Source of the DNA: Antedon mediterranea
Taxonomy: Eukaryota; Echinodermata; Crinoidea; Comatulida; Antedonidae
DNA: 64,000 nucleotides
Assembly: GCF_964355755.1 (NCBI RefSeq)
Contig: NC_092678.1
Span: forward strand, 4,808,922 to 4,872,921
Reading direction: 5' to 3'
Shown here one piece after another: positions 1 through 33,124 of the stretch. The translations under genes and the position numbers were made by a program. Position 1 is the stretch's first letter; each line of letters starts with the position of its first letter. Under the pieces are notes generated by a model, which did not search any database, had not been told where the DNA came from, and worked only from the letters and a program-made list of their open reading frames with translations.

Positions 1-3000
1 AAGCGTCTACTGCCACCTTAGGTGCCCATTCAAAGCATCAGCAGGATTAGCAACCACAGCTTACTCATCACACTCTGCGCGTCTACTGCCATCTTATGTG
101 CCCATTCAAAGCATCGGCAAGATTAGCGTCCACAGCTTACTCATCATACTATAGAGCGTCTACTGCCATCTTACGTGCCCATTCAAAGCATCGGCAAAAT
201 TAGCGTCCACAGCTGAATCATCACACTCTAAAGCGTCTACTGCCATCTTATACGTCCATTCAAAGCATCAGCAGGATTAGCAACCACAGCTTACTCATCA
301 CACTCTAAAGCGTCTACTGTCATCTTACGTGCTCAATCAAAGCATCGACAGGATTAGCATCCACAGCTGAATCATCACACTCTAAAGCGTCTACTGCCAT
401 CTTACATGCCCATTCACAGCATTGGCAGGATTAGCGTCCACAGCTTACTCATCATACTCTAAAGCGTCTACTGCCATCTTACATGCCCATTCAAAGCATC
501 GGCAGGATTAGCAACCTCAGCTTACTCATCACACTCTAAAGCATCTACTGCCATCTTACGTGCCAATTCAAGACATCAGCAAGATTAGCGTCCACAGCTT
601 ACTCATCATAGTCTAAAGCGTCTACTGCCATCTTACGTGCCCATTCAAAGCATCGGCAGGATTAGCAACCACAGCTTACTCATCACACTCTCAAGCGTCT
701 ACTGCCATCTTACGTCATGCCCATTCAAAGCATCGGCAGGATTAGCAACCACAGCTTAATCATCACACTCTAAAGCGTCTACTGCCATTGTATGTGTCAA
801 TTCAAAGCATCGGCAGGATTAGCGTCCACAGCAATACTCATCATACTCTAAAGTGTCTACTGTAATCTTATGTGCCCATTCAAAGCATCGGCAGGATTAG
901 TGTCCAAAGCTAATATTCATCACACTCTAAAGCGTCCACTGCCATCTTACGTGCCCATTCAAAGCATCGGCAGGATTAGCGTCCACAGCTTACCCATCAG
1001 TCTAAAGCGTCTACTGCCATCTTACGTGCCCATTCAAAGGATCGGCAGGATTAGCGTCCACTACCCATCATAGTCTAAAGCGTCTACTGCCATCGTACGT
1101 GCCCATTCAAAGCATCGGCAGGATTAGCGTCCACAGCTGACTCATCACACTATAAAACGCCTACTGCCATCTTACATGCCCATTCAAAGCATCGGCAGGA
1201 TTAGCGTCCACAGCTTATTCATCATACTCTAAAGCGTCTACTGCCATCTTACGTGCCCATTCAAAGCATCGGCAGGAGTAGCATCCACAGCTTTACTCAT
1301 CATACTCTAAAGCGTCTACTGCCATCTTACGTGCCCATTCAAAGCATCGGCAGAATTAGCGTCCACAGCTTACTCATCATACTCTAAAGCGTCTACTGCC
1401 ATCTTACGTGCCCATTCAAAGCATCTGCAAGATTAGCGTCCACAGCTGACTCATTATACTATAGAGCGTCTACTGCCATCTTACGTGCCCATTCAAAGCA
1501 TCGGCAGGATTAGCATCCACAGCTTATTCATCATACTCTAAAGCGTCTACTGCCATCTTACTTGCCCATTCAAAGCATCGGCAGGAGTAGCGTCCACAGC
1601 TTTACTCATCATACTCTAAAGCGTCTACTGCCATCTTACGTGCCCATTCAAAGCATCGGCAGGATTAGCGTCCACAGCTTACTCATCATACTCTAAAGCG
1701 TCTACTGCTATCTTACGTGCCCATTCAAAGCATCGGCAAGATTAGCGTCCACAGCTTACTCATTGTACTATAGAGCGTCTACTGCCATCTTACGTGCCCA
1801 TTTAAAGCATCTGCAAAATTAGCGTCCACAGCTGACTCATCACACTCTAAAATGTCTACTGCCATCTTACATGTCCATTCAAAGCGTCGGCAGGATTAGT
1901 GTCCACAGCTAACTTACCACACTCTAAAGCGTCTACTGCCATCTTACGGGCCCATTCAAAGCGTCGGCAGGATTAGCAACCACAGCTTACTCATCACACT
2001 CTAAAGCGTCTACTGTCATCTTACGTGCTCATTCAAAGCATCAACAGGATTAGCAACCACAGCTGAATCATCACACTCTAAAGTGTCTACTGCCATCTTA
2101 CGTGCCTATTCAAAGCATCGGCAGGATTAGCGTCGACGGCTTACCCATCACAGTCTAAAGCGTCTACTGCCATCTTACGTGCCCATTCAAAGGATCGGCA
2201 GGATTAGCGTCCACTACCCATCTACTGCCATCTTACGTGCCCATTCAAAGCATCGGCAGGATTAGCATCCACAGCTTTATACCCATCATAGTCTAAAGCG
2301 TCTACTGCAATCTTACGTGCCCATTCAAAGCATCGGCAGGATTAGCGTCGACAGCTTACTCATCACACTCTAAAGCGTCTACTGCCATCTTACGTGCCAA
2401 TTCAAGGCATCGGCAGGATTAGCAACCACAGCTTACTTATCACACTCTCAAGCGTCTACTGCCATCTTACTTGCCCATTCAAAGCGCCGGCAGGATTAGC
2501 AACCACAGCTTACTCATCAAACTCTGAAGCGTCTACTGCCATCGTACGTGCCCATTCAAAGCATCGGCAGGATTAGCGTCCACAGCTGACTCATCACACT
2601 ATAAAACGCCTACTGCCATCTTACATGCCCATTCAAAGCATCGGCAGGAGTAGCGTTCACAGCTTTACTCATCATACTCTAAAGCGTCTACTGCCATCTT
2701 ACATGTCCATTCAAAGCATCGGCAGGAGTAGCGTTCACAGCTTTACTCATCATACTCTAAAGCGTCTACTGCCATCTTACGTGCCCATTCAAAGCATCGG
2801 CAGGATTAGCGTCCACAGCTTACTCATCATACTCTAAAGCGTCTACTGCCATCTTACGTGCCCATTCAAAGCATTGGCAAGATTAGCGTCCACGGCTTAC
2901 TCATTATACTATAGAGCGTCTACTGCCATCTTACGTGCCCATTTAAAGCATCTGCAAAATTAGCGTCCACAGCTGACTCATCACACTCTAAAGCGTCTAC

Positions 3001-4428
3001 TGCCTTCTTACATGTCCATTTAAAGCATCGGCAGGATTAGCGTTCAAAGCTTACTCATCATACTCTAAAGCGTCTACTGCCATCTTATGTGCCCATTCAA
3101 AGCATCGGCAGGATTAGCGTCCACAGCTTACTCATCATACTCTAAAGCGTCCACTGCTAAAGCGTCTACTGCCATTTTATGTACCTATTCATTGCATCGG
3201 CAAAATTATTGTCCACAGCTGACTTATCACACTCTAATGCGTCTACTGCCATCTTATATGTCCATTCAAAGCATCGGCAGGATTAACGTCCACAGCTTAC
3301 TCATCATACTCTAAAGCGTCTAATGCCATCTTACGTGCCCATTCAAAGCATCGGCAGGATTAGCGTCCACAGCTTACTAATTATACTCTAAAGCGTCTAC
3401 TGCCATCTTATGTGCCCATTCAAAGCATCGGCAGGATTAGCGTCCACAGCTTATCCATCATAGTCTAAAGCGTCTACTGCCATCTTACGTGTCCATTCAA
3501 AGCATCGGCAGGATTAGCGTCCACAGCTTACTCATCATACTCTAAAGCGTCTACTGCCATCTTATGTGCCCATTCAAAGCATTGGCAGGATTAGAGTCCA
3601 CAGCTGACTCATCACACTATAAAACGCCTACTGCCATCTTACATGCCCATTCAAAGCATCGGCAGGATTAGCGTCCACAGCTTACTCATCATACTCTAAA
3701 GCGTCTACTGCCATCTTACGTGCCCATTCAAAGCATCGGCAGGATTAGTGTCCACAGCTTTACTCATCATACTCTAAAGCGTCTACTGCCATCTTACGTG
3801 CCCATTCAAAGCATTGGCAGGGTTAGCAACCACAGCTTTACTCATCACACTCTAAAACGTGTACTGCCATCTCACGTGCCCATTCAAAGCATCGGCAGGA
3901 TTAGCAACCACAGCTTACTCATCGCACTCTCAAGCTTCTTCTGCCATCTTACGTGCCCATTCAAAGCATCGGCAGGATTAGCAACCACAGCTTACTCATC
4001 ACACTCTAAAGCGTCTACTGCCATCTTACGTGCCCATTCAAGGCATCTGCAAGATTAGCGTCCACAGCTTACTCATCACACTCTAAAGCGTCAACTGCCA
4101 TCTTACGTGCTCATTCAAAGCATCGGCAGGATTAGCGTCCACAGCTTACTCATCATACAATAAAGCGTCTACTGCCATCGTACGTGCCCATTAAAAGAAT
4201 CGGCAGGATTAGCAACCACAGCTTACTCATCACACTCTCAAGCTTCTACTGCCATCTTACGTGCCCATTCAAAGCATCGGCAGGATTAGCGTCCACAGCT
4301 TACTCATCACACTCTAAAGCGTCTACTGCCATCGTACGTGCCCATTCAAAGTATCGGCAGGATTAGCGTCCACAGCTGACTCATCATACTATAGCGTCTA
4401 CTGTTATCTTACGTGCCCATTTGTACTT
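1..4428 (-). repeat. 77-bp satellite derived from an SPT6 exon, array 1
   Basis: About 57 head-to-tail units of 77 bp run from the window edge to 4428 and probably continue beyond it. Read on the minus strand, a unit encodes [15 protein letters not shown], one codon, then AVDANPADA. This matches the SPT6 (SUPT6H) segment that in the human protein, as I remember it, reads [23 protein letters not shown]. Many units have TAA at the Ser codon (LEYDE-stop-AVDA); others, for example around 1136-1145, keep TCA. Because 77 is not a multiple of three, every unit shifts the frame, so the array cannot encode a repeat protein. Unit-to-unit differences are mainly scattered substitutions, with occasional small indels. 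Short ORFs on the plus strand are by-products. Confidence 0.9.
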
Positions 4429-4463
4429 CTACGGGTGTATATGTGTACTGTCGCCTCACTGTA
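4400..4463 (-). pseudogene. SPT6 exon, 5' end preserved at edge of array 1
   Basis: On the minus strand a T-rich stretch ends in TTTACAG (AG at 4465-4464). Exon-like sequence follows and reads, with two in-frame stops, GDSTHIHP-stop-KYKWARKI before running into the 77-bp units. In SPT6 the segment before EWARKM ends DGSRVHPETY, so this is the natural 5' part of the amplified exon. It lies downstream of the next exon upstream (4833-4960) in correct gene order. The stops show that it is a pseudogene. Confidence 0.7.
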
Positions 4464-4832
4464 CTGTAAACATAAATTTATGAGGTTCCATTTTTATATA
4501 TATATATTTTTTATTTTATTTATAAACTTATTTTACATGGATGACATTTTCATTAAAAATAATGTTCTTACAAATGGTTCATGTTAAAAGAAATGTATGC
4601 ATAATAGTGAATAGTTACAAAACATTTTTTTGTTGTTTTAGATTATAGAAAGACATACAAGAACTATTACATTTTAAATACAGATACAAATAATAAACAG
4701 TTATATATATATATTTTTGCATCATTGTATGAATACTATTGAAAGAAACAGCCACAACAAGGGCCTTAACATCACAGGTGATGACCACATCCCCTGATTA
4801 ACTGATATAAAAGTAATTATGTGAATGTTTAC
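4464..4832. other. Intron-like AT-rich spacer between SPT6 exon remnants
   Basis: AT-rich DNA with TA-dinucleotide runs near 4494-4510 and 4703-4714. It lies between the donor of the 4833-4960 exon and the acceptor at 4464, in the position of an SPT6 intron. No coding sequence or RNA gene is seen. Confidence 0.5.
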
Positions 4833-4960
4833 CTTTCTCCTATCTTTGCTGTATCAATCTTAATAAAACCAGCACAATTTATAAATACTTTGGGACCCAA
4901 ATTGTAAGTTGTCACAAGCTGTATCCGGTTCTCAAGCCTTTGGTTTTCTTGTTTCAATGT
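4833..4960 (-). pseudogene. SUPT6H: SPT6 exon (core helical region), open reading frame intact
   Basis: Minus strand. AG acceptor at 4962-4961 (TTTGACAG) and GT donor at 4832-4831 (AAAG|GTAAAC). The 128-nt exon is open throughout in phase 0 and reads [16 protein letters not shown], then [22 protein letters not shown]6 has LKQNNTRLESRTQLV and [17 protein letters not shown] here, in the middle of the elongation factor next to its helix-hairpin-helix DNA-binding part. SPT6 is a nuclear histone chaperone travelling with RNA polymerase II. The neighbouring exon remnants at 4400-4463 and 5072-5365 are broken, so this is almost certainly part of a pseudogene although the exon itself has no lesion. 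Confidence 0.85.
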
Positions 4961-5071
4961 CTGTCAAATTAAAATAGTAAATAAAATAAATATAAAATCA
5001 TATTTTGCATAATAGGAGTAGATATATTTAAACAAAATATAATACATGCATTCTGCATTAGGTAGGCATAC

Positions 5072-5365
5072 CTTAATAATTGTGCCTGATTTTCTTGGGC
5101 ACAGTACGGACACAAACTGCATCAAGACTGTGTGTGAGGATGCTTAAGAGCACGGTTTATATCCAATCCAACCTCGTTCACACAATAAATAAATTCCTGA
5201 TAAGTGTCTTTATCACTAATTGCTTTTGTTTGAATGAATCCATCAAGCCATTATCAAGATGCTCTTTGACACAGATTTCTTGTCCTTGGCAGTTACCACC
5301 GTACTTCGTGCTATGGAGATAGCTTGACGCAAGTTTGAGAGGGTATTGCCGGAATTCACTCTGTA
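5072..5365 (-). pseudogene. Rearranged SPT6 fragment: S1-domain piece joined to NEVGVD piece
   Basis: Minus strand, donor AAG|GTATG at 5072/5071. From the 5' side it reads an S1-domain-like piece (GQEI-CVKEHLDNGLM, then after a frameshift GFIQTKAISDK) and directly afterwards [20 protein letters not shown]. After another frameshift it reads LMQF, PRKSGTIIK up to the donor. In SPT6 the segment EF-x-VNEVGVDVNRAIAHP lies several hundred residues before the S1 domain ([26 protein letters not shown], split here only for comparison of parts). Here the S1 piece comes first, so the order is permuted. Several frame breaks are present. A second copy with the same join lies at 8392-8700. Confidence 0.75.
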
Positions 5366-5852
5366 ATCAAACCGTATTTCTTAAAAGTAATGCTTAACTT
5401 ATTACATACTTGAAAGCAACAATGAATATAAACTAGTAGCTGTATTCACCAATGATACTTTAAGTGAGATACTTAGTATTTAAGGGAAACATCTTAAGTT
5501 CGAAAGATTTTTAAAATATACATTAAAATACAATTAAAGATGTATTGTCCCTTGAAACACAAAAATGAAGGTCAAAATATTCTAAATTTAAATTGGCCAT
5601 ATCAAAGTAATATCACGTCGAAGTCGAAAGACAAAAATTCGAGCCAAAAAACACAAGTTTACTTAATTAACAGGTAAATTAATTTGATTACATTTCGTCT
5701 GGAAAACGTCGCTAACGAAAGTAAACAAAGATTTCAAACCACATTAGGCGTGATGCTATTAGGATTGTTTACAACTCGTCATGGTTGACAAGGTGTTTGT
5801 TTTCACACAGATCGCGAGAAAGTTTTATGATTATGCATACAGAGTAGCCAAA
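5366..5852. other. Unassigned AT-rich sequence
   Basis: No gene, repeat array or inverted repeat recognised. It separates the rearranged SPT6 fragment from the 233-bp duplication. Confidence 0.4.
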
Positions 5853-6318
5853 CAAGCACGTTGCATTATGAAATATGTTTTGATCGAAAACTTTGACTGG
5901 AAGTCAAAGTTATTTTTTGAACAAAAAAACGTCTGTATTCCAGTTAAATGATTTAACTGCACAGATTTAACTGCACAGATATCATACAAAATAATCCTTC
6001 TGTTTCTATAGTTTTAGTAAATGAAATATATATGACATATTCATATAAAATGGAAGGAAGAATAACTTTAAGATAAGATAATAAGCAAGCACGTTGCATT
6101 ATGAAATATGTTTTGATCGAAAACTTTGACTGGAAGTCAAAGTTATTTTTTGAACAAAAAAACGTCTGTATTCCAGTTAAATGATTTAACTGCACAGATT
6201 TAACTGCACAGATATCATAAAAAATAATCCTTCTGTTTCTATAGTTTTTAGAAATGAAATATATATGACATATTCATATAAAATGGAAGGAAGAATAACT
6301 TTAGGATAAGATAATAAG
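5853..6318. repeat. 233-bp tandem duplication (two copies)
   Basis: The segment from about 5853 to 6085 is repeated at 6086-6318 with only a few differences. Landmarks such as AAGCACGTTGCATTATG recur at an offset of 233 bp. Inside each copy the sequence ATTTAACTGCACAG is itself doubled. No coding potential is evident; the minus-strand ORF at 5953-6195 spans the copy junction. Confidence 0.85.
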
Positions 6319-6434
6319 ATTTATAAAGTGCACATATATCCACAAAGTGCTCAAGGTGAGTTTCCATACATTCACTGCAAGTGTTACAAAGTCTAGACTA
6401 CAACTGTTTTCAGTAATAAACGTAACATTCATAC

Positions 6435-6540
6435 CTGTCATTCTGACTCATCTGCAAAAGCGTCCAAATCTAAATCTTGTACCCTCTCTGGATTATCAAG
6501 AATCTCATTTGAAGCATCGGCAGGATTAGCGCCCACAGCT
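6435..6540 (-). pseudogene. SPT6 exon, 3' end with splice donor
   Basis: Minus strand. After the last satellite-like unit the sequence reads [15 protein letters not shown], then [12 protein letters not shown], a stop, and Q before a donor CAG|GTATG (exon end 6435, GT at 6434-6433). SPT6 has ANPAGALEEILENPE and [14 protein letters not shown] here. This is the natural 3' part of the exon whose middle was amplified into the 77-bp array. A TGA where Arg is expected shows decay. A second partial copy of this 3' part is embedded at about 6850-6930. Confidence 0.85.
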
Positions 6541-8155
6541 CACTCATCATACTCTAAAGCGTCTACTGCCATCTTACGTGCTCATTCAAAGCATCGGCAG
6601 GATTAGCGTCCACAGCTTACTCATCATAGTCTAAATCGTCTACTGCCATCTTACATGCCCATTCAAAGCATTGGCAGGATTAGTGTCCACAGCTTACTCA
6701 TCACACTCTAAAGCGTCTACTGCCATCTTACGTGCCCATTCAGAGCATCGGCAGGATTAGCGTCCACAGCTTACTCATCACACTCTAAAGCGTCTACTGC
6801 CATCTTACATGCTCATTCAAAGCATCGGCAGGATTAGCAACCACAGCTGACTCATCTGCAAAAGTGTCCAAATCTAAATCTTGTAGCCTCTCTGAATTAT
6901 CAAGAATCTCATTTGAAGCATCGGCAGGATTAGCATCCACAGCTCACTCATCATACTCTAAAGCGTCTACTGCCATCTTACGTGCCCATTCAAAGCATCG
7001 GCAGGATTAGCAGCCACAGCTTACTCATCACACTCTAAAGCGTCTACTGCCATCTTACGTGCCCATTCAAAGCATCGGCAGGATTTAGCATCCACAGCTT
7101 ACTCATCACACTCTAAAGCGCCTACTGCCATCTTACATGCCCATTCAAAGCATCGGCAGGATTAGCGTCCACAGCTTACTCATCATACTCTAAATCGTCT
7201 ACTGCCATCTTACGTGCTCATTCAAAGCATCGGCAGGATTAGCGTCCACAGCTTACTCATCATAGTCTAAATCGTCTACTGCCATCTTACGTGCTCATTC
7301 AAAGCATCGGCAGGATTAGCGTCCACAGCTTACTCATCATACTCTAAAGCCTCTACTGCCATCTTACGTGCCTATTCAAAGCATCGGCAGGATTAGCGTC
7401 CACAACTTTCTCATCATACTCTAAAGCGTCTACTGCCATCTTACGTGCCCATTCAAAGCATCGGCAGGATTAGCGTCCACAACTTACTCATCATACTCTA
7501 AAGCGTCTACTGCCATCTTACGTGCCCATTCAAAGCATCGGCAGGATTTAGCATCCACAGCTTACTCATCACACTCTAAAGCGCCTACTGCCATCTTACG
7601 TGCCCATTCAAAGCATCGGCAGGATTAGCGTCCACAGCTTACTCATCATACTCTAAATCGTCTACTGCCATCTTACGTGCTCATTCAAAGCATCGGCAGG
7701 ATTAGCGTCCACAGCTTACTCATCATAGTCTAAATCGTCTACTGCCATCTTACGTGCTCATTCAAAGCATCGGCAGGATTAGCGTCCACAGCTTACTCAT
7801 CATACTCTAAAGCCTCTACTGCCATCTTACGTGCCTATTCAAAGCATCGGCAGGATTAGCGTCCACAACTTACTCATCATACTCTACAGCGTCTACTGCC
7901 ATCTTACGTGCCCATTCAAAGCATCGGCAGGATTAGCGTCCACAACTTACTCATCATACTCTAAAGTGTCTACTGCCATCTTACGTGCTCATTCAAAGCA
8001 TCGGCAGGATTAGCGTCCACAACTTACTCATCATACTCTAAATCGTCTACTGCCATCTTACGTGCTCATTCAAAGCATCGGCAGGATTAGAGTCCACAGC
8101 TTACTCATCATACTCTAAAGCGTCTACTGCCATCTTACTTGCCCAATTGCATTTC
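6530..8155 (-). repeat. 77-bp satellite derived from an SPT6 exon, array 2
   Basis: About 21 units of the same 77-bp repeat as at 1-4428, same orientation. It is bounded on the 5' side (minus strand) by the exon start at 8156-8189 and on the 3' side by the exon end at 6435-6540. One inner unit near 6850-6930 is followed by a copy of the non-amplified exon 3' part (DNSERLQ-type reading). The array also shows higher-order structure: blocks such as 7081-7340 and 7550-7800 repeat almost exactly. Confidence 0.9.
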
Positions 8156-8189
8156 TACAGGTGTACATGTGTACTGTTGAATCGGTGTA
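8156..8189 (-). pseudogene. SPT6 exon, 5' end at edge of array 2
   Basis: Minus strand. TTTACAG acceptor (AG at 8191-8190), then a short exon-like stretch beginning YTDSTVH and running into the first 77-bp unit with frame breaks. It is homologous to 4429-4463. With 6435-6540 it brackets array 2 inside one expanded exon. Confidence 0.65.
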
Positions 8190-8391
8190 CTGTAAACATT
8201 AACTTATGTGGTTCCATTTATATATATTTTTAGGCATCATTGTATCATTGATTTGTTTTATTGGCGCAAACAGTCTGAAAATTAATAGCAAAATTATCAT
8301 CAATGAAATATAAAATCATATCTAGCATAACACGAGCATATGTAATTTTTTCAAATATTTTTAAAGAGAATACATGCATACCTTAATAATT
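8190..8391. other. Intron-like spacer
   Basis: AT-rich sequence sharing patches with the spacer at 4464-5071, but without the 4833-4960 exon. The two SPT6-derived copies therefore differ by loss of that exon here. Confidence 0.5.
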
Positions 8392-8700
8392 GCACCTGAT
8401 TTTCTTGGGCCCAGTTCTCACACAAATTTCTCAAGGGCGTGGTTTATATCCACTCCAACCTCGTTTACACAGTAAATAAATTCCTGTGTTTATCACGAAT
8501 TACTTTTGTTGGAATGAATTTCATCAACCCATTATCAAGACGCACTTTGACACCAATTTCTTGTCCTGGGCAGCTACCACCGCACTTCGTGCTATGGAGA
8601 TAGCTTGACACAGTTGAAGAGGGTATTGCCGGAATTGACGAGAAGTCGTCTTTGAGTTTTTCAATATCTTCATTTAACTCCTTATATGTACAAACTTTTT
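8392..8700 (-). pseudogene. Rearranged SPT6 fragment, second copy
   Basis: Minus strand, donor after AAG at 8392. The open stretch upstream reads [17 protein letters not shown] and continues in frame through [30 protein letters not shown]. After a frame break it reads [16 protein letters not shown]. The S1-like piece is better preserved than in the copy at 5072-5365. The residues before GGSCPG do not resemble SPT6 as I know it. The same permuted join in both copies shows that the rearrangement preceded the duplication. Confidence 0.75.
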
Positions 8701-8775
8701 TTTGGATTTTGTTTTTTTAATTTTTTTTTTATTTTTTTTTTTTATATTTTTTTTTTTATTTTATTTTTTTTTTTA
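8695..8775. repeat. Poly-T tract
   Basis: Nearly pure T with scattered A, G and C. It could be the A-tail of a minus-strand retroposed sequence (poly-A on the minus strand), but no source is recognised. Confidence 0.7.
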
Positions 8776-8869
8776 ACAGCTTGAGCTGCGCGGATAGGAA
8801 TGGCTTCATCCTAGGTCGAAATGCACCCGATAATCTACACTACAAAACAATGCACAAATCATAGAAAAA

Positions 8870-9380
8870 AAGAAGAAAACGAAATAATAACACTAGGAAT
8901 AAAAAAGGAAATGAAATGAAAATAAACAGAAGAATGACAAAGAAAGAGAATGTAAAATAAATGTAGAAGTAAAGTAGATAAAAGGAATAAAATAAAATAA
9001 AAAAGAATGAAGAGAAAGAAAAAGTCCAGGCAACGGCATGAAGAGGCACAGAGTGAGGCTAGCAGGACACAGATAGCCGGGCATTCAATCCATCCGAATC
9101 ATCAGTGGGTATGTGTACGAACAAGATCAGATGTTAAATGGGAAGAAAGTCGTCAGCTTACCAATATTCACCAATAAATAATAATAAATAAAAATAAACA
9201 ATAAATAAAAACAACAAATAAAATATTAAATTAAATATAAATAAAATAATTATAAAATTAAAGTAATATAAATAAATAAAAATAAATAATTAAAAATTTA
9301 ATATAAATAAAAATAATATAAATTATAACAAACAATAATAATAAAAAATAAGAAACGTAATAATTAAAAAAAGATGCACG
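8870..9380. repeat. A-rich low-complexity region (AAATA/AATAA runs)
   Basis: Long stretches of AAATA, AATAA and AGAAA. The minus-strand hydrophobic ORFs in this stretch (Phe/Leu/Ser-rich) simply reflect T-rich codons on the other strand and are not taken as genes. Confidence 0.8.
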
Positions 9381-9476
9381 AAATTTGGCCTACATATGAT
9401 GAAAAGTAATTGTGTTGAAAATTAGACCACAGATTGGTGTGTGCCCCAGCATGTGTTAGCTTTTGCTAGGATGGTA

Positions 9477-9838
9477 CATTTTTTATTTTATTTTATTTTA
9501 TTTTATTCAATCGAAACCAACAGCGATAATTACCGCCACTAACAGGTTTGATACAATCAAAGCCAGGACTGTTTAAAGCACCTTGATTGGTCCTGATATT
9601 GATCAAGGGCTTCTCTCGTCCAGTGCCCACCTTGACCAGTGGTCTGTGGCAGATACTAGATGCAGGGGCTGCCATAAGAGTCAGCAGTGCTGATTTCAAA
9701 TGCCTAATGGGACCCCAGGTCCGTATACAGCACCCGCTATTCCCAGATGGTCTCCCATCCAAGCTCTAACCAGGCCCAACGTTGCTTAACTTCGGTGATC
9801 TGACGAGAACCGGTGTTTCCACGTGGTAAAGCCGTATC
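9477..9838 (-). mobile_element. 5S rRNA-derived SINE
   Basis: On the minus strand about 9838-9720 reads like a 5S rRNA from end to end. It has an A-box region AAGTTAAGCAACGTTGGGCC and the internal control region GGATGGGAGACC at 9760-9749, ending in GGGTGCTGTA. Unlike a normal 5S gene it is followed by about 240 bp of unrelated body and an (AAAAT)n tail near 9505-9481. This head-body-tail layout fits SINE3-class elements, transcribed by RNA polymerase III from the 5S internal promoter and moved by LINE machinery. Changes at the 5' end argue against a functional 5S gene. No target duplication was found. Confidence 0.85.
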
Positions 9839-10189
9839 ATGATTCAGGTAAAAATTAGGGGGGTGCAATTATAATCCATTTTTGTATTTGTTTGTAATTA
9901 TAGCTTAAACAAACAATTAAAACCAGAAGGAAGTTTCTGTTTATATAATAATTAACTTATTAAACCAGATGTGGTTTTCTTATTTCAATTTATTTATTCT
10001 TTTTTTTGACATTGCATTTTCAGTAACTGCAGTAACTTATTCTAAATATTGATTATATACCAAGACATCAACAATGGATGGAAACAAATATACGGCCCTG
10101 AGAAAATGAACCTTAAGTCGAGTGCAGTCAATTATTGATTGCAATCTATATTCAAGAAAATGGACATATTCAAGTCACTGTATTGTAAA

Positions 10190-10555
10190 GGGGATCTGAA
10201 AAAGTGATCAGGCTGAAACCTTACCTAAGGCCCTGAGAAAATGTAAATGGATCAGTGGAAATGTTGAGTGCAGTTAAATGTGGTCAGGCTGAAACTTTAG
10301 CTACGGCCCTGAGAAAATGTACATTGATTAGTGGATATGTTGAGTGCAGTTAAAAGTGGTCAGGCTGAAACCTTACTTAAGGCCTTGAGAAAATGTATGG
10401 ATCAGTGGATATGTCGAATGCAGTTAAAAGTGGTCAGGTTGAAACTTTACCTAAGGCCTTCAGAAAATGTACATGGATCAGTGGATATGTCAAGTGCAGT
10501 TAAAAGTGGTCAGGCTGAAACCTTACCTAAGGCCCTGAGAAAGTTTAAAAAATTA
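10190..10555. repeat. 76-bp tandem repeat, about 5 copies
   Basis: GTCAGGCTGAAAC recurs at spacings of about 74-77 bp together with CTGAGAAAATGT and GGATCAGTGGATATG. A related but looser copy lies just upstream at 10090-10150. It is unrelated to the 77-bp satellite despite the similar period. Confidence 0.85.
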
Positions 10556-10795
10556 AATATTTGATATACTTTGATTTTTCAATGTTGTTGAACCATACTG
10601 ATAAATCAATCGGTGGTTTATAAATTTTCTACACCTGTCAATTCTTGTCAACTTTTAGTTGCATACATAGGATATAAACCAAAAATAAACTGACCCCACA
10701 ATTCACCACTAATTAACTACTAATGGTATTATAGACCTTGTTTCGTCTTTGAAGAAATGCCAAGATCGTTTGAGGATTGTACAAGATGCCTTTAA

Positions 10796-11185
10796 CATTT
10801 ATGCTCTCTGTGTGCAACTTCCTTTGGCTTTCTTTTAAAAGAATTCCATTTTTCATAACTGGTACATTGTAGTGTTTTCTACAGCTATTGTTGTGAACTA
10901 TGATTTCTGTCATACCAATTAGTTCATCTTTGTCCTATCAAGTGTTTCTTAATTTACACAGTCTCGTTTTATGTTTTTTCTTCTTCTTCGGCTCTCTGCG
11001 TGCAACATCCAGAAGCCTTTGGCTTTCTTTTGAAAACCATTCCATTTTCTGGTACATAGTGTTTGGTACAGCTATTTTTGAGTGAACTGGCCAACATTGA
11101 TTTAAGTCAATATCAATTCCTTGTCCTATCAACCAGAGTAGCTTAATTTTCACTGGTATCTTGTTGACCAGTTTTTTTTTTATGA
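10796..11185. repeat. About 190-bp diverged tandem duplication
   Basis: CTCTCTG-GTGCAAC, CTTTGGCTTTCTTTT, CCATTTT, GGTACAT and TTGTCCTATCAA occur in the same order in both halves (about 10796-10985 and 10989-11185). The minus-strand ORFs of 66 and 93 residues overlapping them share the patch KESQR. It may be an old repeat-encoded peptide, but no family is recognised. Confidence 0.6.
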
Positions 11186-11219
11186 AAAGGCCATAATAGC
11201 CAACAATGTTTTCCGTCAA

Positions 11220-14200
11220 ATATCAAATTCTCAGTTCTCTTTTTTTTCCTCCATATTCTTCATGTCCCATTAACGTAACGAGGCTGACTTGTTCTTTGAA
11301 TTCACAAACTATTATCAATTGTTACAATACATTTAGTTATTTGTAATCTGAATGCAACAGTTTTCCTGTTCAAGTCTTGTTTACACAGAATGATGATTGA
11401 AACTTATTGGATGTGGGCATCAACATAGGCTAATTTAAATTCCAGCTAAAACACTAGCATAGTAAGTATAGTCCAAATATCCCTGGTTGTTGTAAGTGCT
11501 TTTAAAAATACAAGGGCATTGAAGAACGTACAGTATCTTGTTACGGAATTATTTTAACTGTCCATAATTTTAGAAATGTATTTTAGTTCTTTTTAAACAA
11601 TTTTTTTCTTCAATTCCATATAGACCTAAATGAATTGGTAATTCATAGTTGTCTCTCTTTTGTACAAATCTCAAAAGACATCAGGCAACTAGCAATTAGT
11701 AAATTTGAATTAAAGACATGTCTTTAATTACCAACTATGGTGAACTGCAGGGTCGGTTTAACGCCAGTACACAACTGCATTTTGGTAGTTTTTTTCATAC
11801 AAATAATGAATTCCTTTGGAAAATAGAACAAAGTTGAAAGTGTTTACTATGCCTGATTATATTGCATAAAGACAATACATAAACACTGTTGGTTGTAGGA
11901 AAAGTAATAGTGCTTAAAAAATGTTTTAAGATCTAGTGTTGCATAAGGTAAAACAGCACTACTGTATACAACAATCAGTGGTTGATATACTGTATATTGA
12001 AAAAGAAAGAAAAGGAGACAAATCTAATATTGGTACAGATGTAAAACAAGTTTTACAGCACCAAAAATAGAAATGAGAAAAAGAGGTAGATGAAAGGGAT
12101 AGTGTACAAAGCTCTTAAAGCTTATACAGTGGAAGGCTACTGAAATTGAGGGATAAAAGTTCTGTTAACAAGATGATAGGGTTACAAAAAGAGTGATGTT
12201 AGGGCAAAGGTGAAACAATATCCCATTTATCAATTAAGTAGTAAATGTCACCAAAGTCATAACTTGAAATTGCCTTTATCTTAAGCAAGACAGGAAGGTA
12301 AGGAGCGATTTAGATAACCAAAACAGTACAAAAACAGTATGGATTTTTGTGCTGTCATTGTCAGCAACATTGAAAAAATCAAGGTAAATAATATTTGATT
12401 TAATATTTCAAATTAATTTATGATTGTATTCTATCAGTACAATTTATCATGTTTCTGGTTTCTGTCAACAGAAGAGACTTAACCACATGTAAAGGATGAG
12501 GTTATTACACTAAGAATAATCAAAAGGATAAAGGGATTAGAAATAGAGGGATACAAGTTATCCACAGAATTGACCATTTTGAAAATGCCAATGCCTTTCA
12601 TGAAGATATTTTTTATTGGGTTATCAATTATAACTGCATGCCAAAGGGATGCCGAATTTGTTGCACAACCATGTAGAGGTAAATTCTACTGCAGAACAAA
12701 AGTAACAGGCTAAATTAATAGAACTTGAGGACTTAAATTGAAACGGAAAAAATATAAGAACCAACCTGATGTGTCAAATCAGTGGGAACCTACTGGCCAA
12801 ATAGTTTGAGAAGATATCTCACTCTTAAAGTGCTTACAGAAATATGAAATAGGAGGTTTTACGCCACATTGTAACACAGGTTCCATCATCTAAGTTCATT
12901 ATAAGTGATGATCCACATGAATGGACACACTAATGAAAAAGATACTTTTATTTAACCATGTCAGCCTGTAAAGGTATACACAGACTTTGGAATAAAGATT
13001 AGTGTTTGGGATCAATTCTTCACAAGAACTGTTTCTGCATATTGCAAGTGCTTAGTATTGTGGTTCTCAAACAGCACAATAAAAAGCAAGACAGGTATAA
13101 ATACCATAAAGAACAGAAGTTCACACAAGAACAAATTTTGGCCCAACCGAAGAGAGGGTTAGAGCGTTACTGTACTTATTCTAGATAGGTACAGAATACC
13201 ATATTTTGCCTACATATGCAAATGAATTAAGGATAGTGTGTGAAGCTAGCTTAATGCTTTAGCAAAACAAAACAAGATAACAAAAACTCAATGCAATCGA
13301 CCAGTTGTTCCTTTTCTCAGAGCCGTATATTTGCATCCCTCCTTTGTTGATTTCAACAACATTTAAATAATCAGGGTAAATAATACCGTAAAGAACAGAG
13401 GTTTAAAAAAAGAGCAAATGTTGGCCCAACTAAAGTGAGGGTTAGCTTAACAGAATCCCTTTTGCCAAATGCAGCCACATTTTTTACCACAAATGCAAAA
13501 AAAAAAAAAATGTGTGTCTTGCCACATTTTAACCACACATGCAAATGGTGTGTGAAGCCATCATAGTTGGGCTAGTGTTGGGTTAGGTTCTGTTACATCT
13601 CCAATATCTTTATAGCAAACTATTCTTTTCTGCTTATGACCGAAAAGTAGTCCTCGTAAAACTGCTACCGAGATGGGATAAAGTTTTTTATAGTTTACTT
13701 ACTAAATGTTACTGAAATGCAATCTAGTCAAAATACATGAATAAATAAATAAATGGAATTAGCTTTTGTAACAAATTGCAATACACTTTGTTATACTGTA
13801 GTATATTTTTTTAAATACCAGAATCTATATAATAATGTAATTGAACCTTGTACTGTATGGTCCATATCATTTATTTCTACATATTTGAATAATGTATGGA
13901 GAAGTTGAAATGAACAACTTATTCAGGGACCGCTGTTAGTCTTTGTCTGGAATTTAAATGACAGATGTGTTGTGTTATTTAGACCATTTTGCCTGTTAAT
14001 CAATAAGTCTTTGTTATATTGTACCTATATAATAATTTATAAGTTATTGTATCAAATTTATTCTGCCTTACTTTCCTCATCTATCTATTTACATTGTATG
14101 TAAAGCTGATGGAATATCACCAACGCTGAACCTGATACTACCTGCCTTGCTTGGTTGGCTTTTTAAATGTCTTTTTGATAGGTTTATGTCTTGGTTGGTT

Positions 14201-19803: not shown

Positions 19804-19900
19804 CCTACTAGTTAGGCCTAGCCCTAGTTAGGGCCTATAGGCCTAGGCCTATACCAGGTAGGCCTAGACCTAGGCTAGGCCTAGGCCTACCTACATATAC
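19800..19900. repeat. AGGCCT palindrome cluster
   Basis: Dense overlapping TAGGCCTA and CTAGGC motifs. The mirror copy is at 36580-36670 and shorter clusters are at 20058-20085 and 36395-36415. Confidence 0.7.
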
Positions 19901-21994
19901 TTTATTAATATTGGAAATCTATGGATGGTAATATAGTAGAATTCAGTATCAAATGGTGATATTTCTGTATTTTTTTAATCAATTGTTTGCTTGCGATCAT
20001 ATAAGGTATGGTTTAAAGATCTTTGGCCATGTTTGGCTTCGGGATGTTATACCACACTTAGGCCTAGGCTAGGCTAGGCTATAGGGGTCGTCGGTTTCGT
20101 GTTGGGGTCGTCCAATTCGAGGTCGTCGCTTTCTACACACCCATTTGTTTGTTCACAATTTTGAAGCTATGGTGTTGTACTTTCAGACTATATGTTGTAT
20201 TCAAAAAATAATGTTTAGTGATTGGAACTCATGAATTTACATTCAATATACCCTATTCTGGCAAAAAAACTACAAATTCTTGTGTGAAATTTACGATTTT
20301 CAGATGATTTTGGTTTAAAAAATTAAATCATAACTTTGAACAGCGTCCTCGTACGACTTAGTTCTTGTAGTTAAAATAATATGAAATAATTTTATGTTGC
20401 CAAAACAACAAAATGATATTCCTAAATAGTTGGATTGGTGATTGGTTATTCCATTATTTCATGGGGTTTCTAAAATATTGTTGTACAGTATATCAATACA
20501 GTTTCATTTTCATTGATATTATTTCTGGAAACAATTCTGGTAACCAATAATTGAATTATAAATACTGTTGATTACTTACTGCAAATTTGATCCCACATGA
20601 AGTTTAATGAATTTGTAAAAGCCCAAACAGATTCTGCACTTAATGCAATATAAACAGTTATTAAAGGGGTACAGTGTATTCCACAGTATTTTTGTCACAA
20701 ACATCACACTTTAGAAAGTTTGAATTGCTATATCTAGCAAAGGAATCTATGAAAACATTTCATTTTTTTGGTGAATTATTGCTTATATTACATTTAAATA
20801 GGTATCTATAAGTATAACAAATATTTTAATGTGACTGTGTAAATGCCGAATATGTTCGCGCCACGGATCGCGACTTTTGACAGCATAAATGTAAGTTCTG
20901 TGCTGTTTCTACAATTTATTTAGATAGTATCCTAACAACTAATTTTTTTGTTATTGATATTTTATTGTATAAACGATTATCTGTGTCACAAAGATTAAAT
21001 TTATAAACATCAGGGACATTACAATTGGACCCCAAAAAACAACTATAAAACCGTACATAAAAACCAACAAAAAAGTCCAGCTAACCTCGAATTCATAAGC
21101 CTATGTTTAAAATTAGTTTAGTTGGTAATTAAACAATGGCAAAATCCCTAAAATTAAGATTAACATTTTTGGAATCCAATTTTTGGAATCGTAGGTTCAG
21201 GATTCAAGTTATCACTTTTAATACTTGATTTACAACAGAAAACGCACTATAAGTATAACTATATACCGGTAAGCTGCTTTTGAAAATGTTAATGATGGGT
21301 ACCTGGTATGCCTGTGCATAATGGCTGCCAACGGTCATGACATCGTACAACTTCTTATGTTTACTATGATACCAACATGAATTATTTTTTCTATCAAAAA
21401 CCTTAAAAGCTTCAAAGAACAATTAATATTTTGTTTGAAGGTTTGCATGTCGAAATCAAATGTTGATAAAGTTTGCGGTACACCACGTATTGATTGGTGT
21501 ATATATAAACAAGAACAATTAATATAAAAAAAAACAACAAAAACAGAATGTACTAAAAATGTCATGGACTTGCAATTAAGATTTAAGACAGGATTTATGA
21601 AATTAATAAATTCAGAAAATTTTCTAAAACCCATCAAAAATCATAAAAGTACATCTAATAAACATACCTGTTTATGTTTTCTTTATATTTATTCGTAAAA
21701 TCTGTGACATAATGTAGTGTCAGTGACAACATTTTATTCAGTGAAATTATTTTAAGGTTTTTGATATAAATTAAGAGGATATGCAGTTTGACAATTTTGT
21801 TTCCACTAGAACTACTGTATATAAAAAAACCAAAAAAAACGTACTAAAAATGTCACAGAATTACAATTAGAATAAGACAGGAATTATGAAATTAATATTT
21901 AAAGGAACTTTCCATCACAAATCATAAAAAGTACATAATAAACATATCGAACTAAAATTATTTAGGATTGTTACAGTATCAGTAGATAATATAG

Positions 21995-22076
21995 GTACTG
22001 TGTAATATAGGTACTGTGTAATATAGGTACTGTGTAATATAGGTACTGTGTAATATAGGTACTGTGTAATATAGGT
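21995..22076. repeat. 15-bp minisatellite TATAGGTACTGTGTA
   Basis: Five to six units; mirror copy at 33000-33105 in the right arm. Confidence 0.9.
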
Positions 22077-22294
22077 TTTTAATATAGGTATATTCAAATG
22101 TCATATCCATGACATAAAATCTGCATTTTCAGTCTTTGACATAAAATATTTTGAAGTCTCAATTTTCTTTTAATTCATATATAGATATACTCACTGTATA
22201 CTTATTATATAACACATAATAATAGGCAGTAAGCGTATGCATCAGGTTTAATTTGTTTCACTCATTTATTATAATCTGTTTATATTTGTAACAG

Positions 22295-22682
22295 ATTGCA
22301 GACAGAGGCCCTCAATTTTATTGAGGGCGGGGTGTACCGGCCCAACAGTAGAGCTGTACGGATAGATGAGGAAGTAGCAGTCGGACAACGTGGTTGTCGC
22401 CGGTTTCATCCTTATGGCCGAAATGCAAGAGGTCGTTATCGCTCCCCACTACTTGTTCCAATACAACCACTACCACCTCCACCACGAAGACGAAGAGCAC
22501 AGCATCATGCACCACCACAACCACAACATCATTCACCACCCAGACCACAAATACCACCAAACAGACAGTTAAGACGCACGAGACAACAACAACCACGTGA
22601 ACGGCAACAAAGAGTACGCAGACAACAACAATCCCCACCAAGACAACAGCATTCACCGTCACAACATCATACACCGCCTTAG
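22295..22682 (+). pseudogene. Family gene second exon, left copy (premature stop)
   Basis: Starts after AACAG at 22294. It reads LQTEALNFIEGGVYRPN, AVRIDEEVAVGQRGC, FHPYGRNARGRY and then a Pro/Gln/Arg/His-rich tract. It ends at TAG (22680-22682), where the right-arm copy has CAG (Gln), so a single C-to-T change truncates it. Homology to the right copy continues past the stop to about 22755, where the palindrome arm ends. The C-terminal part found at 31592-31960 is missing. Confidence 0.75.
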
Positions 22683-22755
22683 CGACGAAGACGTACACGA
22701 CAATGAAACACTCCACCATCTTCACCTACATCATCAATTTCTTGTTCATCGTCTG

Positions 22756-22967
22756 GAAGTGTACAGTATGTGGGCATTATGGTATGCTGGGCAATAATAG
22801 TACAAGATCTGATGCATAGACGATAGGATCCACTTTTTCTTCTTGTTTAAACTCATTTTGAAGATGCCGTCTACTACAAATTTACATTTAAATAACATTA
22901 GATGGTGACAGTACAACAACCTACAGTATTTCATTCATTTATTATAATCGGTTTCTATTTTTAAAAA
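22756..22967. other. Palindrome centre, start: unassigned sequence
   Basis: Short unique stretch followed by a new copy of the CATTTATTATAATC intron end that precedes family exons. Confidence 0.5.
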
Positions 22968-23035
22968 ATTGCAGGCCGAAGCACTGAATTTCATTAAGGG
23001 CGGTGTTTACCATCTTAACTGTAGAGTTGTAATCT
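22968..23035 (+). pseudogene. Family exon fragment
   Basis: ATTGCAGGCCGAAGCACTG then EALNFIKGGVYHLNCRV before homology is lost. The AACAG acceptor is replaced by a run of A. Confidence 0.65.
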
Positions 23036-23078
23036 GGACAACACTGAAGGTCCCTAACTCTTGGCTGATGAGCAAGAT

Positions 23079-24124
23079 CACTTGTATTTTAAGAAGGGGA
23101 ATGTCAGTGAAGCCAAGAATTACAGAGGGATATCGATAGGATCAAATCTAAGCAGAATTCTATCCAAGATTATCACATGATGATGGAGATTGAAAGGGGC
23201 GTATGAAAGTCATTTAAGTAAGAGTCAGTTTCGATTCCGCAGCAATAGATCAACTGCTAATGCTATTTTTATAACCAAAGCTGTTATCGAGAAACATCTT
23301 TCTTTGAAGTGAGAGTCGGATGCAGACAAGGTGGTCAGGAATCGTATCATCATAAAAGCATTGCCATACAATTTGTTTACTTGGTAGCGTACGTGCCCGT
23401 CCAAAAATAATTAATTTAAATTAAGGTCCAAAATCTCACTGTCTGAAGGACAATTTATTTCACTATTTTTTGGCTAAAATTACATTTTTTCGGGTAAATT
23501 TTGTTTCGATCCAAATTTTGGTCAAACTAATATTCCTAAACTACACCTTACACAGTTACTACGATACTCAAGAAACTTGTTCAACCACGAGGGCACTTTT
23601 GTACATAGAGCGTTACGGACGTCACACATTTTTGTTGTATGCCGCACGTGTTATGTTTACAATCTTTGATGGATATTATTGTGATTCAACGATTAGATCT
23701 TTTTTATTGGATCATCATAACGTGTGCGTTATGGTTCACTAATTTTCGTTGCTATATAAATGAATGTTCAAAACAGCCGCGTCTTCTTCTGATAGTTGAT
23801 TAAAAAAAAGGGTAATCAAATAAATAGGCCTAAATAGAAACTTAAAAAAGAAGAAAAGATGAATCGAAGACTTCGATTGTGAGTAACAGTACGTAACACG
23901 CACCTTCTTTGTTTTTTTTTACATTTTTTAGTTAAAAAGTCAGCCTAGGCTAATTATTCATTAATTGTTTCAATTAAATTGTTTTAACACGTAAAAAACA
24001 ACAGTTTAATTACTAGCTGGCCCTAAAACCGATGGATTGGCCCAAGTCGACCCCGTCGATCGGTTTCTATTAAAAAAAATTGCAGGTCGAAGCACTGAAT
24101 TTCATTAAGGGCGGTGTTTACCAT
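23079..24124 (+). repeat. Central direct repeat A, copy 1
   Basis: About 1.04 kb repeated at 25300-26334 with very few differences. Order inside: reverse transcriptase fragment (23083-23310); a copy of the palindrome-arm promoter block with TATA and mini-exon (about 23340-24055), carrying an extra 170 bp near 23380-23540; then the start of a family exon. One difference is an extra ATG triplet (ACATGATGATGGAG here, ACATGGAG in copy 2). Confidence 0.9.
23083..23310 (+). pseudogene. Reverse transcriptase fragment (non-LTR), copy 1
   Basis: Encodes the same fragment as 25300-25527 (KKGNVSEAKNYRGIS, FRSNRSTANAIF) but with an in-frame TGA from the local duplication near 23177. It belongs to the finger part of a non-LTR retrotransposon reverse transcriptase. 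Confidence 0.75.
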
Positions 24125-24275
24125 CTTAACTGTAGAGTTGTACGGATAGACAAAGAAGTTGGAGTTTCATACTTCTGGCCCAAGTGTCGTGAGGTTGTTA
24201 ACGCTCCCCACTATGTGTTCCAATACAACCACTATCACCTCTACCACGAAGAAGTATACCACAAAAGTTGAATTG
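24075..24275 (+). pseudogene. Family exon fragment
   Basis: QVEALNFIKGGVYHLN, VVRIDKEVGV, then a frame-altered stretch that still tracks the ARG-RYRSPL region at DNA level (GTTAACGCTCCCCACTATG). It stops early at TGA. The promoter block and mini-exon lie just 200 bp upstream, so the 5-kb intron is missing in this copy. Confidence 0.65.
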
Positions 24276-24304
24276 TTTCACTCATTTATAATATTATGTT
24301 TCTA

Positions 24305-24445
24305 TTTTTAACAAATTGCGGGACGAGGCCCTCAATTTTATTCGGGGCGGGACATATCGTCTTAACGGTAGAGTTGCACGGATAGATGAAGAAATAGTAG
24401 TTGCACACTGTGAGTGTCGCCGGTTTTACCATTATGGATGATGTG
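24305..24445 (+). pseudogene. Family exon fragment
   Basis: TTTTTAACAAATTGCGGGACGAG then GPQFYSGR-type broken frame. At DNA level it follows GCGGGACATATCG, GTAGAGTTGCACGGATAGATGAAG and CGCCGGTTT of the family exon. Frames are disrupted and the tail is lost. Confidence 0.55.
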
Positions 24446-24637
24446 CTGTATCCACAGCCAATTGCACACAATCATTACATTTTTTTTACCTTTCATGCGT
24501 ACTTTTATTGAAATTTGATAGGAAGGATATATTGACGCACGTTAATAGGATCTGGACCTATTTCATATTTATAATGGGCCATATTGATTAAGGTTTAATT
24601 TGTTTCACTCATTTATTATAATCTGTTTATATTTGTA

Positions 24638-24990
24638 ACAGATTGCAAACAGAGGCCGTCAATTTTATTGAGGGCGGGGTGTACCGGCCCAACAGTAGAG
24701 CTGTACGGATAGATGAGGAAGTAGCAGTCGGACAACGTGGTTGTCGCCGGTTTCATCCTTATAGCCGAAATGCAAGAGGTTGTTATTGCTCCCCGCTACG
24801 TGTTCCAATACAACCATCACCTCCACCACAAAGACGTATACCACATCATTATTCACCACAACCACAACATCATTCACCACCCGGTCTGACAGGCAGACAC
24901 CATCAGACAGACAGTTAAGACACATGAGACAACAGCTACCACATGAACGGCAACAAAGAGTAAGCAGCAGCAGCAGGCTAGCTACACACA
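24638..24990 (+). pseudogene. Family exon copy with acceptor
   Basis: After AACAG it reads LQTEAVNFIEGGVYRPN, AVRIDEEVAVGQRGC, RNARGCYCSPLRVPIQPSP and a His/Pro/Gln tract, ending early at the TAA in CAGTTAAGACAC. It is about as close to the intact right copy as the left-arm copy over its first 80 codons. Confidence 0.7.
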
Positions 24991-25299
24991 GACAGCCGGT
25001 TTGGGACGCAAGTGTACCGTCTAGGCCTAGGCCTACTTAAATTAGATAGTATAATCGGTTTATCGGTTGCCTGTCAAGTCAGTCCTAAACCGTCAGATTG
25101 GCTCATGTTAAGTTTACCCCAATCAAGTTGGCTCCTCGTTAACGTGGCCTCAAATCAAACAAAAAAATTATTAGACTTTAAAGTTAGAGGTCAGTTCAAA
25201 AAGAAATTGTGGCCACACATTATTTAAAAATATAGTTTATGGGCAAAAGCTGTAAAAAGTAGTAAAAAGAAGAAATGTAGGAGAAAAGAGGTTGCAACA

Positions 25300-25527
25300 T
25301 CACTTGTATTTTAAGAAGGGGAATGTCAGTGAAGCCAAGAATTACAGAGGGATATCGATAGGATCAAATCTAAGCAGAATTCTATCCAAGATTATCACAT
25401 GGAGATTGAAAGGGGCGTATGAAAGTCATTTAAGTAAGAGTCAGTTTCGATTCCGCAGCAATAGATCAACTGCTAATGCTATTTTTATAACCAAAGCTGT
25501 TATCGAGAAACATCTTTCTTTGAAGTG
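25300..25527 (+). pseudogene. Reverse transcriptase finger fragment (non-LTR)
   Basis: Open frame with FKKGNVSEAKNYRGISI, SNLSRILSKII, LSKSQFRFRSNRSTANAIF. These are the NYRGIS and QFGFR-x-RST motifs at the start of non-LTR reverse transcriptases. It is truncated at a TGA, and the catalytic motif A is not present here. Confidence 0.8.
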
Positions 25528-26334
25528 AGAGTCGGATGCAGACAAGGTGGTCAGGAATCGTATCATCATAAAAGCATTGCCATACAATTTGTTTACTTGG
25601 TAGCGTACGTGCCCGTCCAAAAATAATTAATTTAAATTAAGGTCCAAAATCTCACTGTCTGAAGGACAATTTATTTCACTATTTTTTGGCTAAAATTACA
25701 TTTTTTCGGGTAAATTTTGTTTCGATCCAAATTTTGGTCAAACTAATATTCCTAAACTACACCTTACACAGTTACTACGATACTCAAGAAACTTGTTCAA
25801 CCACGAGGGCACTTTTGTACATAGAGCGTTACGGACGTCACACATTTTTGTTGTATGCCGCACGTGTTATGTTTACAATCTTTGATGGATATTATTGTGA
25901 TTCAACGATTAGATCTTTTTTATTGGATCATCATAACGTGTGCGTTATGGTTCACTAATTTTCGTTGCTATATAAATGAATGTTCAAAACCGCCGCGTCT
26001 TCTTCTGATAGTTGATTCAAAAGGTAATCAAATAAATAAATAGAAACTTAAAAAAGAAGAAAAGATGAATCGAAGACTTCGATTGTGAGTAACAGTACGT
26101 AACACGCACCTTCTTTGTTTTTTTTTACATTTTTTAGTTAAAAAGTCAGCCTAGGCTAATTATTCATTAATTGTTTCAATTAAATTGTTTTAACACGTAA
26201 AAAACAACAGTTTAATTACTAGCTGGCCCTAAAACCGATGGATTGGCCCAAGTCGACCCCGTCGATCGGTTTCTATTTTTTAAAAATTGCAGGTCGAAGC
26301 ACTGAATTTACATTAAGGGCGGTGTTTACCATAG
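25300..26334 (+). repeat. Central direct repeat A, copy 2
   Basis: Second copy of 23079-24124: reverse transcriptase fragment, promoter/TATA/mini-exon block, start of family exon. Homology to family exons ends at 26334, where reverse transcriptase palm sequence begins. Confidence 0.9.
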
Positions 26335-26960
26335 GAGTGGAAATAACAAGTGGATCTTATGCAGATGATCTTGTTTTATTCTCAAAAAATGTTAAAGAAT
26401 CACAGCAAATCTTGACCATTATGTGCGATACTTGCAGAAGATACGGGTTGAATGTTTCCCTGAAGAAAACGAAGACTCAGGTGTTTGGTGAACAACATCT
26501 AGCAAAGAAAAGTTCCTTAGTGAACATAAATGGAGTGGATATTGAAAATGTAAGAGACTTTGTTTATTTGGGGCATACAATCACAAATAGAGGATGGCTA
26601 CTTCACTGACCATAGAACATCAAGTGCTGTAGGATAGTTCCATGAATTAAAGTTTTAAAAGATCATGATGTCTATATGAAGACAAGAAAGAAAGTTTTAG
26701 AGGCCTGCGTAAGATCCAGGCTCTTGCAGTATATGGTACACAAGCATGGTTTCCAAATGAGAATGAAATAAAGAAGCCTGAATTGTGTTGGCATAAAATA
26801 TTGAGACAGATGGTCAAGAGAGGGTTTGACAGGTCAAAGAAAGAGGCTGACCAACCAGATGAGGATATCTATCGTGATCCGTGGATAAACATCTCTCGTA
26901 TTTTAAGTATGGAAATTAGGCAAAGCCAAAGCCATTACACAATCGAAGAAAATTCTTAAG
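26334..26960 (+). pseudogene. Reverse transcriptase palm and C-terminal region, copy 1
   Basis: Frame with SYADDLVLFSKNVKESQ (the YADD catalytic motif), then GLNVSLKKTKTQVF and DFVYLGHTITNRG. After a TGA and frameshifts it continues as KVLEACVRSR, QAWFPNENEIKK, and ILRQMVKRGFDRSKKEAD. These are non-LTR retrotransposon motifs. The 5' fingers are replaced by a piece of family exon. Confidence 0.8.
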
Positions 26961-29462: not shown

Positions 29463-29465
29463 GGC
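29337..29465 (+). pseudogene. Intronless family start, second copy
   Basis: ATG then MSRRLLQAEAFNFS, and after a frame break GRVARIDKEESVKQECRLF. It parallels 27735-27850. Mini-exon and second-exon sequence are contiguous here. Confidence 0.6.
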
Positions 29466-29900: not shown

Positions 29901-29904
29901 CATT

Positions 29905-31590: not shown

Positions 31591-31591
31591 A

Positions 31592-33105: not shown

Positions 33106-33124
33106 ACTGTATATATACAGTATA

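Follow-up and report, generated by a model that had tools for sequence, protein, structure and literature searches.

Tandem repeats are known to arise from pieces of longer sequences. Satellites derive from ribosomal DNA (rDNA) spacers and transposons (PMC5615363) and other tandem repeats from retrotransposons (PMC7004042), and the As51 satellite of characiform fishes lies in degenerate ribosomal RNA (rRNA) genes (PMC13170303). In Drosophila, amplified or copied fragments of protein genes are found in the Su(Ste)/Stellate system (PMC8412255) and in the gene-fragment hairpin RNAs (hpRNAs; PMC10317233). The present work concerns two neighbouring arrays of a 77-bp unit in the crinoid Antedon mediterranea (assembly GCF_964355755.1), found at the start of a stretch of 64,000 nucleotides (contig NC_092678.1, positions 4,808,922 to 4,872,921), hereafter the window. 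The unit is a slice of exon E5 of SPT6, the gene of a transcription elongation factor.

With the repeats from rDNA spacers, transposons and retrotransposons these arrays share that the monomer derives from a short piece of some longer, known sequence; they differ in coming from a conserved protein-coding exon, in the presence of the parent and of other copies of the exon in the same genome, and in occupying only one locus. As51 is likewise an array inside a degenerate gene copy, although of an rRNA gene and not of a protein gene. The Drosophila Su(Ste) and hpRNA loci yield small RNAs against their targets, and hpRNAs are inverted repeats, whereas the units of the SPT6 array all have one orientation. 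Minisatellites and variable number tandem repeats (VNTRs) have units of tens of bases at one locus, with internal variants and block duplications; the SPT6 array is alike in these traits, and differs in being large (about 14 kb), in having higher-order blocks and in being traceable to an exon slice. Among the papers listed by searches of openly licensed literature, no SPT6-derived satellite or array was found. The kind of locus is already known, and its merit lies in the completeness of the record. The birth of satellites and minisatellites is often guessed, the source sequence having decayed; here one genome holds the living parent exon, copies of it without the 77-bp repeat, a small second array in a sister copy and an expanded array with higher-order blocks. 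Since these stages coexist, the first duplication can be resolved to single bases, and the mode of growth can be compared with models.

The assembly searched comprises 354 Mb in 18 contigs, two of which are concerned: C9, with the window at C9:4808922-4872921, and C3. Tandem Repeats Finder (TRF) placed the 77-bp arrays at window 1-4421 and about 6504-8145. Complete and with its flank, array 1 spans C9:4799394-4813342 (13,949 bp, window -9527 to 4421), 9.5 kb of it lying to the left of the window, and the left-hand stretch of 9.7 kb is entirely array; array 2 is complete at C9:4815427-4817066 (1,640 bp). By wrap-around alignment the arrays contain 205 units (183 in array 1 and 22 in array 2), 201 of which are nearly full (180 and 21, respectively). 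Full units have a mean identity of 93.4% to their consensus and 84.2% to the corresponding slice of the C3 gene, the mean pairwise identity among units is 89.0%, and individual units align to the C3 exon with identities of up to 89% (83 bases) and E values as low as 9e-25. The unit orientation is uniform for all 204 unit matches in C9:4766000-4872921. The original prediction, made from the window letters, of two minus-strand arrays encoding a stretch of SPT6 agrees with these data, and both the peptide derived from the window (a composite, with Q substituted for stop) and the peptide of the C3 exons match human SPT6.

The parent gene was located in the same genome on the minus strand of C3, at about 37.687-37.704 Mb, and is known from open exons over most of its length, short of a full gene model. 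Its joined exons match human SPT6 900-1211 with an E value of 5.9e-150. Exon E5 is present there as a single copy with an open frame (exon end judged by eye), and the 77-bp unit aligns to it as a gap-free, exact slice, TGGGCACG...TTTGAA, with TG after each of the two unit breakpoints, that is a 2-bp overlap. Seven synonymous third-codon sites separate the consensus of the unit from the C3 slice. The exon origin proposed for the unit is borne out by this alignment, and the direction from exon to array is clear, because E5 is one-copy in the C3 gene and the other C9 copies are without the 77-bp repeat. Non-coding parts of the C3 gene carry tandem arrays of their own, at 37693171-37693929 (94-bp-spaced) and 37698466-37700922 (two repeats, visible in translations).

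On C9 the arrays sit within partial, scrambled duplicates of SPT6 that retain introns. The exons adjoining the arrays had been predicted to lie in gene order; their SPT6 identity stands, whereas their order, read in gene direction, is the shuffled E2|E8|E3-E4|E5(array), which occurs twice in the window (Table 1). Exon alignment to the C9 copies gave no E4 match in the set beside array 2. Because they keep intron sequence, the C9 copies are DNA-level duplicates and no retrocopies; the introns align, and many exon copies have stops and gaps, as in unprocessed (duplicated) pseudogenes. The C3 sources of the pieces lie mainly at 37689.0-37693.1 kb, with one more piece near 37694.1 kb, and additional short matches at 37696.6 kb (47 bases) and 37701.9 kb (170 columns) may be dispersed repeats. 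A 545-residue query from the upstream exons, with the acidic N-terminus left out, gave 13 matches, of which 12 lie on C3; the remaining one, on C9 (E 2.5e-4), covers only the last 28 residues, in exon E1; beyond E1 and the piece near C3:37694.1 kb no upstream exon was found on C9.

In protein searches SPT6 fragments were confined to C3 and C9 among the best 97 of 235 candidates, which were those scored in one search, so that the C9 sites are a lower bound: at least 1.243-1.250, 2.636-2.641, 2.672-2.678, 2.874, 3.366-3.370 and 4.684-4.817 Mb. The out-of-order E2|E8|E3 junctions are repeated at 1.25, 2.63, 2.67, 3.37 and 4.81 Mb. The first four of these copies are 89-98% identical in long stretches which extend into non-SPT6 DNA, and this DNA also flanks the window arrays in pieces. 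The segmental duplications of C9 (1.245-1.256, 2.629-2.643, 2.666-2.680 and 3.365-3.377 Mb) are present in both orientations and contain tandem shuffled SPT6 pieces. For E5, 15 alignment rows were obtained on C9 (with array interiors masked and alignments shorter than 40 columns discarded), four being array edges and 11 other copies: L007, L008, L010 (twice), L011, L012, L013, L020, L021, C9:4769236-4769418 and C9:4782967-4783140. Several of these 11 copies are truncated or have deletions, and the 77-bp repeat is found in none of them. All 15 rows have the same change from the C3 slice at positions 18 and 27, 14 rows have one in common at position 45 (deleted in the other) and 13 at position 57. 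At position 24, C is found in eight rows, all from the 4.68-4.82 Mb cluster, inside which the copies at 4.743 and 4.769 Mb keep T.

A genome-wide search with a 34-base core, allowing up to 2 mismatches, gave 133 matches (131 forward and 2 reverse; a recount over the fetched stretches agrees). Array 1 accounts for 108 of them and array 2 for 17; the other 8 fall in single exon copies, at C9:4769286 and once in each of L005, L007, L008, L010, L011, L012 and L013. No dispersed satellite of this unit was detected genome-wide at that threshold. A minisatellite is a tandem repeat confined to one locus, its unit being tens of bases long; classical satellite DNA is abundant and heterochromatic, in many-locus or megabase-scale arrays with homogenised blocks or higher-order repeats. 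The 77-bp unit, with 125 of the 133 core matches in two neighbouring arrays, agrees with the former; one locus of 15.6 kb in all lacks the abundance of the latter, and homogenised, higher-order blocks of 21 and 24 units are present. The array is a large minisatellite with higher-order blocks, and the term satellite, used for it earlier, is a generous one.

The blocks are best seen in array 1, where 20 successive units (C9:4805948-4807489) are 100% identical to the units at lag 21 (4804329-4805870), 16 units show 99.6% identity at a lag of 24, and 99 of the 180 full units have an identical partner. The pattern is one of block duplication, as unequal exchange predicts. Array 2 units have their nearest relatives partly in array 2 and partly in array 1, and given these mixed affinities the two arrays cannot be ordered from their units. 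A Ser codon had been put forward as a means of ordering the expansion. It reads TAA in 158 of the 205 units and TCA in 29, 28 of the latter in array 1; the C3 gene has TCG, and the other C9 copies have A as third base (10 of 10 groups). The predicted mixture of TCA and TAA units is therefore real, and the ordering fails: among the 180 full array 1 units all four main combinations of sites 35 and 44 occur (G-A 75, A-A 65, G-C 21, A-C 7, others 12), which points to mixing by recombination, conversion or recurrent change. As a clock the codon was rejected, being a weak marker, with 21 of the 28 array 1 TCA units already carrying the derived G at position 35. The TCA and TAA consensus sequences diverge at further sites, so that the TCA units seem to form a subfamily and not to be survivors of the first units.

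Variants found within the arrays in at least two units comprise 26 synonymous, 58 non-synonymous and 7 stop changes, for opportunities of 16.3 : 54.7 : 4.0, and these classes give no sign of protein constraint. Differences between the C9 copies and the C3 gene were divided into shared (at least 75% of copy groups; sites with fewer than 3 groups dropped, near-identical segmental copies pooled), with 20 synonymous, 11 non-synonymous and 1 stop, and unshared, with 63, 225 and 20, respectively (Fisher p 1.5e-6 with non-synonymous and stop pooled; the sites are linked and p is only a guide). We read the shared pattern as probably due to constrained change in the C3 gene since duplication, plus an early radiation on C9. 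A working C9 paralogue of SPT6 as founder, prompted by the seven synonymous third-codon sites, was set aside as the less likely reading because these two processes would explain the shared synonymous excess; the unshared changes look neutral, and, as noted, hardly any upstream exon was found on C9.

The locus, with its parent gene, exact unit boundaries, scrambled context, copies without the 77-bp repeat and higher-order blocks and with no coding constraint, very probably records the neutral birth of an array from an E5 slice in a shuffled C9 duplicate, followed by unequal exchange or block duplication. Part of the 3' half of SPT6, together with its introns, would have been copied, presumably from C3 to C9; tandem duplications and deletions would have shuffled it internally, and segmental duplication would have multiplied it along C9. 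A single E5 of the cluster at 4.7-4.8 Mb would have been tandemly duplicated over exactly 77 bp, with the TG overlap at the junction, possibly by slippage during replication or by microhomology-mediated repair. The array would then have grown to about 180 units through unequal crossing-over or the duplication of 21- and 24-unit blocks, and a neighbouring E5 duplicate holds about 22; either may have been the earlier, and both would evolve neutrally. Some points weigh against this account. The whole evidence is the sequence of a single genome assembly, and a 2-bp overlap is weak proof for any repair route. Eight shared synonymous changes fall in E5 and at most three in any other exon, which is unexplained. 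Array 1 has an antisense stop-free stretch of 128 residues, which we take as chance. Finally, the E5 copy in L007 contains a 24-bp unit repeated seven times (L007 2592-2759, equal to C9:4684591-4684758; copies counted by eye), and its 3' breakpoint agrees with that of the 77-bp repeat within 1-2 bp (by eye), which chance explains poorly.

Because the breakpoints of these two repeats, in two C9 copies, nearly coincide, it is conceivable, if improbable, that E5 has a fragile spot (around TTTGAATG) which, freed of coding constraint, repeatedly seeds arrays, and that an antisense-capable array might feed small RNAs against the living gene. Somewhat less probable is a Helitron-like transposon which captured SPT6 pieces and carried them to and along C9. 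Such an element would explain the shuffling and the two orientations, and identical shuffled junctions do occur at five or more places in both orientations; however, the ends of homology vary between copy pairs (1245300 versus 1245975), the homology of one pair reaches the end of the fetched DNA (2643000), no common terminus was seen among the partly mapped outer ends, shared stretches exceed 10 kb, and the copies found are all on one chromosome.

Small RNAs antisense to SPT6, of the Piwi-interacting (piRNA) or small interfering (siRNA) type, for which the arrays would be kept to tune or silence SPT6 or a relative, could be suspected by analogy with Drosophila Su(Ste) or with the gene-fragment hpRNA loci that occur in Drosophila simulans (PMC10317233). 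An exact match of at least 20 nt to the C3 exon is present in 117 of 201 units, and a plus-strand transcript of the array would be antisense. We consider this very unlikely, as the single orientation of the units leaves no hairpin layout, one 231-nt stretch of array 2 (plus strand) folds no better than shuffled sequences (z 0.59), the units and exon copies decay neutrally, and SPT6, a general transcription factor, is an improbable target. An assembly artefact, affecting the array or its length, is still harder to credit: the 20 consecutive units identical to the next block could result from duplication by an assembler, but units vary widely overall, and copies of the exon with that ancestry are present at other C9 sites. 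That the arrays encode a repeat protein or a selected coding VNTR has almost no chance of being true in spite of the coding source of the unit and the antisense stretch, since, as had been argued from the start, 77 is not a multiple of 3, and since the ancestral frame so often reads TAA, sense stop-free stretches reach only 39 residues in array 1 and 49 in array 2, and variant classes are as if unconstrained.

Table 1. SPT6-derived and flanking features in window coordinates
Feature	Position	Strand	Basis or match
Array 1, right part (77-bp units)	1..4421	-	TRF and wrap-around alignment
E5 5' part and end of preceding intron, flanking array 1	4343..4520	-	C3:37691795-37691991, 75.6%; first bases overlap last unit
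E4 copy, 98% identical	4839..4960	-	C9:4813760-4813881
E3 (HhH region) copy, truncated	5066..5207	-	C9:4813987-4814128
E8 (S1 region) fragment, joined out of order to E3	5209..5300	-	exon alignment
E2 fragment joined to E8	5304..5368	-	exon alignment
233-bp tandem duplication, each copy with E5-E6 intron and E6 start	5853..6318	-	TRF; C3:37691533-37691646, 75-78%
E5 3' part and next intron, closing array 2	6374..6565	-	C9:4815295-4815486, 85%
Array 2 (77-bp units)	6506..8145	-	holds internal extra E5 3' part, match at 6847-6992
E5 5' part and intron, opening array 2	8086..8222	-	C9:4817007-4817143
E3 fragment	8376..8486	-	exon alignment
E8 (S1) fragment	8487..8581	-	exon alignment
E2 fragment	8585..8639	-	exon alignment
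Non-SPT6 flank, piecewise common to C9 1.25, 2.63, 2.67 and 3.37 Mb copies	8719..12642	.	63-95%, gapped

A structured RNA from the array was considered and rejected, the one 231-nt stretch folding no better than shuffles. Rfam, applied to window 1-13000, returned nothing but a 5S rRNA gene match at 9722-9839 (minus strand, 79.8 bits), which lies in a part of the flank to which the segmental copies show no match. The 17 TRF arrays selected cover 12.2 kb, or 19% of the window, and the 77-bp arrays make up about half of this; tandem arrays are common in this stretch, and the one from the exon may be a product of this wider tendency. Other long arrays are found at 48572-49962 (49 bp x 28, 97% matches) and 63113-64000 (19 bp x 47, reaching the window end). 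A large inverted repeat occupies 19847-36625, with arms at about 19.8-22.8 and 32.0-36.6 kb whose pieces are mostly 95-99% complementary and which include inverted 16-bp arrays (21987-22090 and 32999-33102); it is possibly a large DNA transposon or a palindrome. Gene-like exons are present at window 47381-50974 (minus strand), window 58326-58685 (plus strand) and L027 644-1801 (minus strand), which by eye resemble a nucleotide-sugar transporter, a CHCHD4-like protein and a DDX20-like helicase.

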